NCBI RefSeq assembly: GCF_002216145.1
Contig: NZ_CP022278.1
Location: 1,984,001 to 2,048,000, forward strand
Source: Neisseria chenwenguii
Lineage (GTDB): Bacteria > Pseudomonadota > Gammaproteobacteria > Burkholderiales > Neisseriaceae
Length of the DNA: 64,000 nt
Direction of reading: 5' to 3'
Below the pieces are notes generated by a model. That model was not told where the DNA came from. It searched no databases and worked only from the letters and a program-made list of their open reading frames with translations. Positions 58,473 to 63,114 of the stretch are shown here, piece by piece (the stretch's first letter is position 1; the number at the start of each line of letters is the position of its first letter). The position numbers were made by a program, and so were the translations under genes.

Positions 58473-59783
58473 ATGCACGAAATCAAATGCCCCCACTGCC
58501 ACACCGCCTTTACCGTCAACGAAGCGAGTTACGCCGATATTCTCAACCAAGTGCGCACACAGGAATTTCAAGCCGAACTGCGCGAGCGGATTGCGCAAAA
58601 CCAAGCGCAGTTCCAAAGCGACTTGAAGCTGGCCGAAACCGAAGCCCGCCGCAGTTTCGAGCAGACGCTTGCCGACAAAAACCGCGAAATTGCCGACCTG
58701 CTCCACCAAATCCAAAATCATGAAAAAGACAGCCGCCTCGCCGCCGCCGAAAGCGAAGGCCGTCTGAAAACCAAAATCGCCGAACAAGAAAAACTGATTG
58801 CCGAATTACGCGCCCAAGCCAAATCGCTGGAAAGCGCGAAAAACATGGAAAAAGAGCTGGAAATCACCAAAGCCCTCGCCGCCAAAGACCGCGAGCTGGG
58901 CGAGCTCAACGCCCGCCTGATGCTGCAAAACAAAGAAAGCCAACTCGAGCAGCAAAGCCTGCGCGAAAAATACGAAAGCGAACTCAAACAAAAAGACGAG
59001 GCCATCGCTTTTTATAAAGACTTCAAAGCCCGCCAGTCCACCAAAATGGTCGGCGAAAGCCTCGAAGCCCATTGCGAAACCGAGTTCAACCGCATCCGCG
59101 CCACCGCCTTCCCGCAGGCTCAGTTCGGCAAAGACAACGACGCCGCAAGCGGCAGCAAAGGCGACTACATCTACCGCGAATTTGACGAAAACGGCACCGA
59201 AATCGTCTCCATCATGTTTGAAATGAAAAACGAAAACGACGAAACCGCCACCAAAAAGAAAAACGAACACTTTTTCAAAGAGTTGGACAAAGACCGCCGC
59301 GAAAAAAACTGCGAATACGCCGTCCTCGTCTCCCTGCTCGAAGCCGACAGCGAGCTGTATAACATCGGCATCGTGGACGTGTCCTACGCCTATCCGAAAA
59401 TGTATGTCGTACGTCCGCAGTTTTTCATCCCGCTGATTTCCCTGCTCCGCAACGCTGCACTTAACTCATTAAAATACAAGCAGGAAATTGCCCAAATGCG
59501 CGCGCAGAATATCGACATTACCCACTTTGAAGAAGACCTCAACAGCTTCAAAGAAGGCTTCGCGCGCAATTACGACCTAGCCAGCCGCAAGTTTCAGACG
59601 GCAATCGAAGAAATCGACAAAACCATTACCCACCTGCAAAAAACCAAAGACGCGCTGCTTTCCTCCGAAAACAACCTGCGTCTGGCCAACAACAAAGCTG
59701 CCGATCTGACCGTGAAAAAACTCGTGCGCAAAAACCCGACCATGAAAGCCGCGTTTGAAGCGTTGGGGAAAGAAGCGGAGTAG
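58473..59783 (+). CDS. DUF2130 coiled-coil protein
   Basis: 436 residues. Starts [24 protein letters not shown] with a CPHC zinc-ribbon half-site, then about 170 residues of Glu/Lys/Gln-rich coiled coil (residues 25-190), then the DUF2130 domain (about 200-400: [49 protein letters not shown]) whose acidic and Lys residues recall a PD-(D/E)XK nuclease-like fold. Function is not established. Monocistronic with an inverted-DUS terminator. Confidence 0.88.
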
Positions 59784-59805
59784 GGGAGGGGGAAACTGAC
59801 TGTAG

Positions 59806-59850
59806 TAAGGCCGTCTGAAAACAGCATAGATTTCAGACGGCCTTATTTTT
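59806..59850 (+). terminator. Inverted-DUS terminator after the DUF2130 gene
   Basis: TAAGGCCGTCTGAAA and TTTCAGACGGCCTTA around ACAGCATAGA, then TTTTTG. Confidence 0.8.
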
Positions 59851-60049
59851 GAATTAAAACCGGTTTGGGCGGGTTTGTTTCCAGATGAATATGACTATGT
59901 TAATTAATCAAATAATTTGTTTATTATTTAATATTTTTGATAAAAAATTAAATTGATGAACTATCTTGGATGTGCTTAGGTCTCAATAATACCTGGGGTG
60001 TGTAGTTTTAGGTAGCTTGTTATTTTTAATGAACTTTCAGGAGTTAAAA
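59851..60049. other. AT-rich upstream region of the small-peptide genes
   Basis: Very AT-rich (runs such as TTATTATTTAATATTTTTG), without DUS, unlike surrounding DNA. It should contain the promoter for the two peptides; candidates such as TTGATG (59953) are not convincing. Confidence 0.5.
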
Positions 60050-60199
60050 ATGAAAGAGTTGAAATTGTATGGATTAGAGTATGTTGCCGGTGGTGACAGC
60101 GGCATCTATAAAATTTTTTATGCTATCGGCAGAGTGGTTCATCAAGGAATAAATTATCAGGAAGTGAAGCGGAGTAGAGGCTACAATCCATATGCCTAA
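60050..60199 (+). CDS. Double-glycine-leader peptide 1 (bacteriocin-like precursor)
   Basis: 49-residue precursor starting MKELKLYGLEYVAGG, a leader of the class II bacteriocin/microcin type with the cut expected after Gly-Gly (residue 15). The mature part would be about 34 residues (DSGIYKIFYAIGRVVHQGIN then a basic, Tyr-rich tail ending YNPYA), no Cys. AGGAG lies 7-11 bases before ATG 60050; an in-frame start at 60017 is rejected because it lacks a site and would spoil the leader. AT-rich codons contrast with flanking genes. Partner at 60271; no immunity gene or C39-peptidase exporter in the window. Confidence 0.7.
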   Translation: MKELKLYGLEYVAGGDSGIYKIFYAIGRVVHQGINYQEVKRSRGYNPYA

Positions 60200-60270
60200 A
60201 AATCAGATAGTTGTATAGGGTTGTTATATCCAAGAAGATACTACATTTTATTTTTATTTAGGAGTGTATC

Positions 60271-60420
60271 ATGAAAGTTTTAACTCAATCAGAATTACAA
60301 TGTGTAAGTGGCGGCAAGGGATGGTGGCGTTTTGCAGGACCTGTAGGAATCGGCATTGGCCTTATCAATGCGGGCAGTGATGCATGGTCAGGTCTTCGTG
60401 ATGGATGGAAATCTGTGTAA
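60271..60420 (+). CDS. Double-glycine-leader peptide 2 (bacteriocin-like precursor)
   Basis: 49-residue precursor, MKVLTQSELQCVSGG leader, closely matching the consensus M(K/R)ELxxxELxxVSGG. The predicted mature peptide is KGWWRFAGPVGIGIGLINAG then SDAWSGLRDGWKSV: Trp-rich, basic start, with a central Gly-rich stretch containing a GxxxG motif (GIGIG) as in two-peptide bacteriocins. AGGAG (TTAGGAGTG) is 6-10 bases before ATG 60271. It follows peptide 1 by 71 bases on the same strand. Too short for usual ORF callers. Antibacterial or signalling use is inferred from the leader only. Confidence 0.78.
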   Translation: MKVLTQSELQCVSGGKGWWRFAGPVGIGIGLINAGSDAWSGLRDGWKSV

Positions 60421-60525
60421 GAGTCAAGTCTGTAGGCCGAATGCTTGTATCTGTTAGAGATCCTATGGTACCGTAAATCGGTATGACTTCGGTTTAAAAA
60501 ACCGACTTGTACGACTGTAAGTAAT

Positions 60526-60556
60526 ATGCCGTCTGAAATGTTTTTTCAGACGGCAT
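60526..60556. terminator. Inverted AT-DUS hairpin between peptide 2 and the RTX beta-helix gene
   Basis: ATGCCGTCTGAAA pairs with TTTCAGACGGCAT across a short T-rich loop; a smaller hairpin CGGTTT-AAAA-AACCG lies just before (about 60490-60505). Confidence 0.75.
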
Positions 60557-60571
60557 CGTTTTGCAGTCAGA

Positions 60572-63114
60572 TTAAATGATGGCTAAGGCAGCCGCGGCGG
60601 CCGTATTGTCGTCATTGGCGGCTGTTGCGGTTTGTACAGTATAGCTTACGCTGTCAGTATCGGCGTTTACGCTGCTCAGACTGTTGATATTGCCGGTTTC
60701 GGACAGTGTGTCCATCAACTGTTGCAAAGCCAGCGAACCGCTGTCGAAGCGGAAGGTATCAATCACGCCGTCGGTGGTGTTGCCGTTTGCGAACTGATTG
60801 TCGACGGTAATGATGTCGCCTTCGTTGCCGTTGACGGTAATCGTCCAGTCGATATTGCCTGCGGCATCGGTTGCGGCTTGGACGTTCAGGTCTTCGACTG
60901 TGATGCCGCTGCCGAATTGGATGGCATTGTTGCCGGCGGCATCGTCTGTGATGGTGTCGTGTCCTTCGCCGCGGCTGAAGACGTAAGTGTCGTCGCCCGT
61001 GCCGCCCGCCAGATTGTCCGTGCCTGTGCCGCCGAACAGGGTGTCGTTGCCGTTGCCGCCGCTCAGACGGTCGTTGCCGTCTTCGCCCAGCAAGGTATCG
61101 TTGCCGTCTTCTCCCAGCAGGTTGTCATTGCCGCTGCCGCCGTTGAGATGGTCGTCGCCCGCGCCGCTTTCCAGACTGTCGTGTCCGGCGTCGCCGTTGA
61201 TGGTGTCGTTGCCGCCTGCGCCTGCCAAACTGTCGCTGCCGTCGCCGCCGCTGATGAAGTTGCCGCCGTTTCCGCTGACGGTAACGGTATCGTTACCGCC
61301 GTTGGCGTAGATGGTGTTGTTGCCGTCTTTGCCGTTGATTTTATCAACACCATCCGTACCGTCGATTTTATCGTTTCCGGCGGTTCCCGTGATGTCGGTA
61401 ACGGTAACGGTTTCGTAACCGAGGGTTTCGCCGTTGTAATAGTAGTTGGGGCCGGGGATGTAAACGGTTTCCTGATGCGTGCCGTAACTGATTTCCTCCG
61501 TGCCGGCGGCGATGTTTTCGGCAATCACCGAATCAAACATGGCAGAACTGCTGACCGGATTGTTTTCCAATGAAACCGTATTTGTGCCGGAACCGTCCGA
61601 AATCGGCCGCAATTGGGTAATGGCCTCCGAAGACAGATTGTTGACGATAGCATTGTCTTTAATCGATACGTTGTGGATTTTTCCGTTGACTTCTTCAAGG
61701 TCGATGGAGCCTTTGACTCGTCCGTAAGGGTCGGCGTTGGTTCCGTTGTTTACCAGCGCGTTGTTGCGGATGGAGATGCCTTTGTCGTTCAAATCGAAAT
61801 TGTGCCCGGCAAATACGGTGTTGACCCGGATGCCCGACCAAGAGGTATTGTCCCGAATCAGATTGTTGGCAACTTCATGGCCGCTGCCGCCGAAAATGCC
61901 TATGCCTGCTGCGCGCCAGCCCAGTTCGACCGTATTGTTCAGGAAACGGTTGTTTTCAGCCAGTTTGGACTCACTGCCGGAATTGATGCTGGACCAAGTG
62001 GCCAAGCCGTCATCGCCGTTACCACGGATATTTGAATTGATAACGGTCGAGTTGCTCGTGCCTTGCGCAAAGTTCACGCCGTCTGCCAGATTGTCGCGGA
62101 TACGCGCGTTGGAGATGGTCAAGCCGTCGGTGTATTGCATTTCGGCAGCCTGCGCGTAATCGCCAATCCATACGCCGGCTTCAAAATGTTCGATGGAGAT
62201 GTCGTGGATGGAAGAGTTGGAACCCAATGTTCCCGAAATACCTTTGTAGTTGGCACTTTCGTTGTAGCGGGAGGTCAGATTGGAATCCATCGAAACGTTG
62301 CCGAAGTCGACATTGTTCGTGCCGTGTTCAAATACGATACCGCCGCCGCCTTGCGCACTGCTTGTGAAATGCAGGTCGGTGTACCATTGACCTGCACCGC
62401 CGATGGTTACGCCCTCGGGTGCATAGATGTGGAGCTGCTGGTCAAAGTCGAACTGACCTTCGGGAATGTAAACGGATTTGCCCGATGCTTTGGCTGATTC
62501 GATGGCAGAGAGCAGGGCGTTCGAGTCGTCGGTATTATCGTTGGCAACCGCACCGAAATCCGTGATGCTGACGCTGTTTTCAGGCTGTTTGACGGCATCG
62601 GGGGCTTTTTCCAAATCGACAAAGTCGATGCCGACGGGGGTGTCGGCCGAAGTGTTGGTCAGCGTAACAACGTCGCCGCTTTTAATGGAAGCATCTTTCA
62701 ACAGTGTATTGACTTCGTCGAATTGGAAACGTGCGCTGCGACCGTCTCCTGCTTCGTCGTAGATATGATCGCCTTGCAGGTATTGCCAGTTGGATTTGGA
62801 CGACAGGTCGAGGGTGCCGACGGATGTGCCGTTCACTTTAACATCGACTTGTCCGGTTACCCCGTCCGGAACGGTATAACGGACGGTCATGGCATCCGCA
62901 TCGGCTTGCGCTTTAAACGAAACGGACGCGTTGGACGGCAAATCAACATACGACTGCCCGCTTGCTTCGACTGCTGCCGACGGGGAAGACGCGGTATTCT
63001 TAACGGCGGCTCCGCCTGCTAGCGTGCCTTTGTCGGCTTCGTATGTGGTATAAGGGACTTCGGCACCGAAGACGGAAGAATCATATTGGTCGGTGCTGTA
63101 GCTGTATTGGTCAT
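60572..63114 (-). CDS. RTX-secreted right-handed beta-helix protein, GH87 alpha-1,3-glucanase-like, with 5' frameshift
   Basis: Residue numbers count from in-frame TTG 62941 (789 residues). Order: carbohydrate-binding-like beta domain (5-110), beta-helix opening [17 protein letters not shown] (128), GH87-like core ([12 protein letters not shown] 250-261, [12 protein letters not shown] 287-298, GDDGLATWS 309-317, [18 protein letters not shown]), then RTX nonapeptides (520-651) and a T1SS-type C-terminus. The best start, ATG 63114 with GGGAG before it, is one base out of frame; the body frame stays open and protein-like ([20 protein letters not shown]) right up to it. One lost base, e.g. ATGACCC to ATGACC, explains this. 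Possibly secreted mutanase; function inferred. Confidence 0.68.

Follow-up and report, generated by a model that had tools for sequence, protein, structure and literature searches.

Two small genes lie in one orientation, 71 bp apart, in the window, by which is meant the whole stretch of 64,000 nucleotides that was analysed (positions 1984001-2048000 of a one-contig genome of 2.50 Mb, here called the own genome, G000). The genes and the elements around them are as follows:

59810..59841, no strand: inverted uptake-sequence pair, GCCGTCTGAA ... TTCAGACGGC, left edge of an AT-rich stretch, read from the sequence
60039..60043, + strand: Shine-Dalgarno AGGAG of peptide 1, at a normal distance, read from the sequence
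60050..60199, + strand: peptide 1 gene, 49 codons plus stop
60050-60094, + strand: peptide 1 leader, 15 residues ending in VAGG, MKELKLYGLEYVAGG
60095-60196, + strand: peptide 1 mature part, 34 residues, DSGIYKIFYAIGRVVHQGINYQEVKRSRGYNPYA
60260..60264, + strand: Shine-Dalgarno AGGAG of peptide 2, at a normal distance, read from the sequence
60271..60420, + strand: peptide 2 gene, 49 codons plus stop
60271-60315, + strand: peptide 2 leader, 15 residues ending in VSGG, MKVLTQSELQCVSGG
60316-60417, + strand: peptide 2 mature part, 34 residues, KGWWRFAGPVGIGIGLINAGSDAWSGLRDGWKSV
60528..60554, no strand: inverted uptake-sequence pair, right edge of the AT-rich stretch, read from the sequence

The initial annotation had reported the two 49-codon genes with their spacing, Shine-Dalgarno sites and VAGG and VSGG leader ends, all of which were confirmed on the sequence. 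It had also assigned the leaders to the type cut by C39 peptidases, and this assignment held: both genes carry a double-glycine leader with a GG cleavage site, peptide 2 scored 16.6 bits against the bacteriocin leader domain TIGR01847 and so passed its cut-off of 15.7 (peptide 1 gave no match), and both peptides matched a neisserial leader profile, which includes both leaders, with E values in one genome of 2.4e-5 for peptide 1 and 1.9e-6 for peptide 2. The pair is more than chance, as peptide 1, used as the sole query before any profile was built, retrieved another pair from this genome (E 2.8e-4). Between the leader of peptide 1 and its paralogue at 379 kb, five of the seven changed codons are synonymous. 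Codon-level support comes from paralogues and not from the window pair: the two beta genes at 528 kb differ at nine synonymous and three non-synonymous codons, with base differences of 3/1/11 by codon position. Searches for known elements gave no match in Pfam for peptide 1 or peptide 2, in Rfam over 59000-61500 or in PADLOC for four peptides, and no sigma-70-like promoter was found on the + strand of 59700-60700.

The AT-rich stretch (59784-60571) has a GC content of 37.7% compared with 54.6% window-wide, and the window holds 77 copies of the uptake sequence AGGCCGTCTGAA versus 16 of ATGCCGTCTGAA. The genus is taken to be Neisseria, in part from these counts. The upstream neighbour of the pair encodes a DUF2130 protein, the C-terminal part of which was matched in 14 of the 46 Neisseria genomes, the own genome included. 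No leader peptides follow the DUF2130 gene at the 12 of 13 other loci that were readable (these were read for up to 1.5 kb downstream, one of them for just 86 bases; at L251 the gene end was not found), and six of these 12 carry a gene that we take to encode a CCA-adding enzyme. Judged by its surroundings, the pair appears to have been inserted locally. The conservation in relatives that had been proposed as a check was found in part, in that homologous leaders and tandem pairs are present in them, whereas the window pair itself, with each peptide as the query, was not found in 60 relatives.

Plasmid and phage origins were considered and rejected: the 801-bp segment gave no match to plasmids by blastn, a beta peptide from 528 kb gave none to phages and plasmids by tblastn, and a scan of viral contigs with the beta alignment yielded 24 stretches by pattern, none of which was confirmed as a relative. 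PHROGs returned one weak match of unknown function for peptide 1 (E 0.058) and none for four other peptides. Separately, the - strand at 60572-62941 encodes a large protein that combines RTX repeats with catalytic domains of the alpha-1,3-glucanase-like type (PF22815, PF22816) and is perhaps a secreted enzyme directed against dental-plaque glucan; its reading frame is listed from a TTG, and the first ATG upstream that has a ribosome-like site (~63114) belongs to another frame, so that the listed start and the intactness of the gene are provisional.

Related pairs, in which the two peptides are called alpha and beta as in lactococcin G, occur at several places. A second tandem pair at 379 kb of the own genome shares the leader start and gene order of the window pair, and at 528-531 kb the genes run alpha, beta, beta, alpha, with a further alpha-type gene 1.5 kb on. 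One further alpha/beta pair is present in the Neisseria genome G025, and full-length matches to the alpha and beta profiles are adjacent in two of the 46 Neisseria genomes (G000 and G025); in G005 a beta-like peptide (E 2.6e-8) is followed by a leader peptide that was not classed as alpha. In Vibrio sp. qd031, a locus taken from the best 80 of 479 exporter loci, a C39-ABC gene is followed directly by genes for a beta-type peptide (full-length match, E 1.6e-16) and then an alpha-like peptide. Together with a hydrophobic ORF of 51 aa, this Vibrio stretch (L177:11372-11904) forms a compact candidate two-peptide operon. Among 369 sampled genomes of the class, beta-type peptides were found at E<=1e-4 in the own genome only, in a scan that scored 18 of up to 42 candidates in some genomes, such that misses are possible; genome contigs scanned with the beta alignment gave 23 pattern matches and no confirmed relative.

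The absence of an exporter gene from the window, from which export in trans had been proposed, was borne out, and the C39 exporter then sought genome-wide exists: the sole C39-peptidase match of the own genome (E 4.6e-37) lies outside the window at a distance of 0.93 Mb from the pair. The protein that contains it measures 717 aa and also has the membrane and ATPase domains of ABC transporters. For the dedicated C39-ABC exporter expected for class IIb there is thus one candidate in the genome, not adjacent to the pair. Three leader-peptide genes adjoin the exporter gene, as do a gene of the HlyD family and a divergent one of the OEP family; export of the pair in trans by this distant exporter is plausible. 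The nearest exporters outside Neisseria include, among the matches listed, those of Moraxella and Psychrobacter (52-56% identity) and those of Rubrivivax-type MAGs (52-53% identity). C39 matches also occur in open frames of ~80-260 aa, some with stops, in G001, G003, G008, G015, G020, G024, G032, G034, G035, G062 and G064; by size alone, these resemble the stand-alone peptidase NapP as its size is given in PMC11798529.

A leader profile of 17 columns, built from 28 leaders of G000, G001, G005 and G025 with the window leaders included, gave 33 matches in the own genome at E<=0.01, which we grouped into 15 places (two matches, at 1,983 and 2,326 kb, are without an ORF in the scan). Genes with the same leader, whose presence elsewhere in the genome and in relatives had been put forward as a check, are therefore found in both, with matches in 12 of the 46 Neisseria genomes (33, 16, 14, 11, 10, 9, 6, 4, 2, 2, 1 and 1). 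In 14 of the 46 a C39 match falls in an open frame at least 463 aa long, one being counted though interrupted by TGA and two measuring just 463 and 476 aa; the ABC domains of these proteins were verified in the own genome. Leader matches accompany the long frame in 9 of these 14 genomes compared with 3 of the 32 others (p 2.7e-4, kinship ignored), all seven genomes with at least five leader matches are among the 14 (p 6.4e-5, kinship ignored), and with the four profile-building genomes removed the figures are 5/10 versus 3/32 (p 0.012, kinship ignored). The rule is not strict, as five genomes have the long frame and no match and three have a match and no long frame. Two findings that would have refuted the initial annotation, a lack of homologous leaders in relatives and a genome free of C39 exporters, were not obtained. 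The pair is probably one of about thirty leader peptides of the own genome that share one exporter.

Several other members of this repertoire were seen. A leader peptide of 40 residues, MKLLSLKELEKVAGG..., is present in G000 as three copies of identical protein sequence, at 528452 (L045:3453-3575), 530807 (L045:5808-5930) and 539309 (L224:4310-4432), each just 5' of an alpha-leader gene and without a clear Shine-Dalgarno sequence, and a variant at 1467494 stands first in the array at 1467 kb. Two leader peptides of 85 aa at 1136 and 1172 kb of G000 (L226:3985-4242 and L227:3631-3888) have long, glycine-rich and similar mature parts, with 74% DNA identity over 656 bp, and similar peptides also occur in G032. 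In G022, about a dozen leader peptides with differing mature parts form an array (L234:6604-11266) shortly upstream of a C39 match.

The mature parts were compared with bacteriocin families. Peptide 2 matched lactococcin G-beta (NF038034) over its whole length with 22.6 bits (cut-off 37, E 8.9e-5) and the class IIb cerein type (TIGR03949) with 20.2 bits, below the cut-off of 21.5, whereas no NCBIfam match was obtained for peptide 1. Against TIGR03949 the betas from 379 kb (30.2 bits), 528 kb (35.8) and Vibrio (25.3) scored above the cut-off of 21.5 and the G025 beta under it (16.9); against lactococcin G-alpha (NF038035, cut-off 37) the alpha paralogues reached at most 24.5 bits and the Vibrio alpha gave no match. 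In a leave-one-out test of each mature part against 2000 of its shuffles, in which several close paralogues make the results not independent, all shuffles were beaten by six of six betas and six of seven alphas. The failing alpha is mature peptide 1, the score of which is reached by 805/2000 shuffles. Mature peptide 2 passed narrowly (13.7 bits versus 12.8 for the best shuffle) and came only third when ranked with 84 other mature parts. By pairwise alignment peptide 1 fits best with the 379-kb alpha (19/2000 shuffles reach the score), and in alignment with the whole family of each peptide the score was reached by 93/2000 shuffles for peptide 1 and 3/2000 for peptide 2. Against solved structures the best matches (beta profile E 0.049, alpha profile E 0.16) were taken as chance.

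Class IIb two-peptide bacteriocins have GxxxG in both mature peptides and an immunity gene beside the pair. The GxxxG motif by which the initial annotation had brought in this class is borne out for peptide 2, with GIGIG and two GxxxG in its mature part, but not for peptide 1, which has none and is the sole alpha without it among those compared; likewise the class IIb reading stands as far as peptide 2 resembles lactococcin G and fails at the family test of mature peptide 1. Because of the family, shuffle and GxxxG results, peptide 2 is classed, by sequence comparison, as a divergent beta-type peptide, like lactococcin G-beta and class IIb, and peptide 1 as alpha-type by leader and position only. 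The pair was not filed under class IIb, because peptide 1 has no GxxxG, no immunity gene was seen next to the pair and neither peptide scores above the curated cut-off.

To our knowledge, immunity proteins have no general signature. Among the neighbouring ORFs no immunity-like ORF was seen next to the window pair, and the earlier statement that an immunity gene is missing is confirmed for the neighbours of the pair. An ORF of 32 aa with one hydrophobic span, a membrane peptide, lies beside the 528-kb and G025 pairs only (across 46 genomes nothing else matched it at a better E value than 0.05), and the 51-aa hydrophobic ORF lies directly 3' of the Vibrio pair; no NCBIfam model fits either, and both are regarded as immunity candidates only. 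Elsewhere in G000, at 1281 kb (L046:5687-6149), a leader peptide of 75 aa is followed by a hydrophobic ORF of 62 aa, a possible bacteriocin-immunity couple.

With a probability of roughly one half, we read the two genes as precursors of a divergent, lactococcin G-like two-peptide bacteriocin unit. Working with the HlyD adaptor and the OEP channel, the C39-ABC exporter would cut each precursor after GG and release a weakly cationic, helix-prone peptide of 34 residues, and both peptides would jointly target the envelope of bacteria nearby, for the most part related ones. Immunity would come from elsewhere in the genome, for example from the membrane peptide of 32 residues found with the 528-kb pairs, or would be unneeded. 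Counted against this unit are the sub-cut-off scores of peptide 2, the lack of a family match and of GxxxG in peptide 1, the shuffle-like score of its mature part, the G025 beta that falls under the class IIb cut-off, the lack of an adjacent immunity or exporter gene and of a sigma-70-like promoter on the + strand upstream, and the absence of antibacterial activity of the gonococcal Nap peptides as described in PMC11798529. Bacteriocin, autolysis and signal functions appear not to be separable by sequence.

We consider it unlikely that the genes encode Nap-like autolysis peptides, which would lyse the producer population in stationary phase and free DNA for transformation, with no killing of competitors. 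Self-lysis would fit the missing adjacent immunity gene, and gonococcal Naps with such leaders are described as promoting autolysis with no detectable antimicrobial activity (PMC11798529); however, a stand-alone C39 peptidase of the NapP type is lacking from the own genome, whose sole C39 match is an ABC exporter, and the beta-type peptide resembles two-peptide bacteriocins. It is quite unlikely that the genes are a decaying or orphan copy, left over from a bacteriocin pair and still exported but no longer working jointly: the two ORFs are intact, as are their ribosome sites and leaders, and the leader of peptide 1 has changed mostly synonymously relative to its 379-kb paralogue, although peptide 1 fails the family test and lacks the GxxxG seen in all other alphas compared, no immunity gene was seen beside it and the locus is missing from readable relatives. 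A role as pheromones, exported and sensed within one species, was suggested for meningococcal double-glycine peptides in the account of PMC2784325 and has a slender chance here, as no gene for a sensor or regulator was noticed next to the pair and dozens of differing mature parts per genome would be unusual for a signal. Chance ORFs without function, which a short, AT-rich intergenic stretch in a single species could suggest, are already very unlikely: the own genome has a paralogous tandem pair that shares leaders and order, as well as 33 leader matches, and the Vibrio pair lies beside a C39 exporter.

Within the bacteriocin reading, the leader end may be a recombination junction. Leader regions from 13 of the 15 places in the own genome and one from G025 were compared, and 58 of the 78 local DNA alignments that span two leaders in register end between -15 and +6 bases around the GG codons; selection on the leader alone could yield most of these ends, and the alignments are not independent. 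Stronger than this pattern is the comparison of the 528- and 539-kb loci, in which 480 upstream bases are identical, the leader agrees at 44/45 bases and the next codon is shared, after which identity falls to ~21%; the second 528-kb copy has the same end point relative to 539 kb after 604 bases at 94%. On this alignment the case is one clear mosaic. The window pair shows a weaker pattern, its leader similarity to the 379-kb and G025 pairs stopping at GG. Tentatively, and with somewhat more doubt than confidence, the window pair can be seen as a cassette of a modular arsenal in which dozens of dispersed peptides share one exporter and recombination in the course of natural transformation swaps the mature part at GG behind a conserved upstream-plus-leader module. 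If true, a strain would change its weapons with expression and export unchanged, and swapping at the cleavage site would give naturally competent bacteria a simple route to diversify secreted peptides. In a genome of about thirty leader peptides, of which some form lactococcin G-like pairs, and one exporter, deletion of that exporter should silence all. In the open-access literature searched, there appears to be little on bacteriocin-type peptides from Neisseria other than the two pathogens.

Lactococcin G and enterocin 1071 (NF038035 alpha, NF038034 beta) share with the present pair two adjacent genes with double-glycine leaders, a beta match for peptide 2 and matches for the alpha paralogues; they differ in that all matches here are below 37 bits, peptide 1 has none, no immunity or exporter gene is adjacent and the host is Gram-negative. 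The remaining systems were compared by description. The gonococcal nap island, as described in PMC11798529, places the peptides NapA-C, which have double-glycine leaders, promote autolysis and are given as without antibacterial activity, beside the stand-alone C39 peptidase NapP and a FapF-like pore gene. It is alike in its neisserial GG-leader peptides, AT-rich stretch and likely horizontal acquisition, and unlike in that the only C39 domain of the own genome is in the distant 717-aa ABC exporter, with none of the NapP type. Meningococcus 8013 has, in the account of PMC2784325, C39-ABC export units and five leader peptides, for which a bacteriocin or pheromone role was suggested; the C39-ABC protein, adaptor, TolC-like channel and several small leader peptides recur here, whereas 33 leader matches and alpha/beta pairs stand against the five peptides there. 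McbABCI of Moraxella catarrhalis, by the description in PMC2761928, is a Gram-negative double-glycine bacteriocin system in which, as is predicted for the present pair, an adaptor and an ABC exporter carry out export; it differs in having one peptide, which kills other strains and is encoded in one operon with exporter and immunity gene. Since the Moraxella peptide is described as killing (PMC2761928) and the gonococcal Naps as promoting autolysis (PMC11798529), both killing and autolysis are known among relatives.
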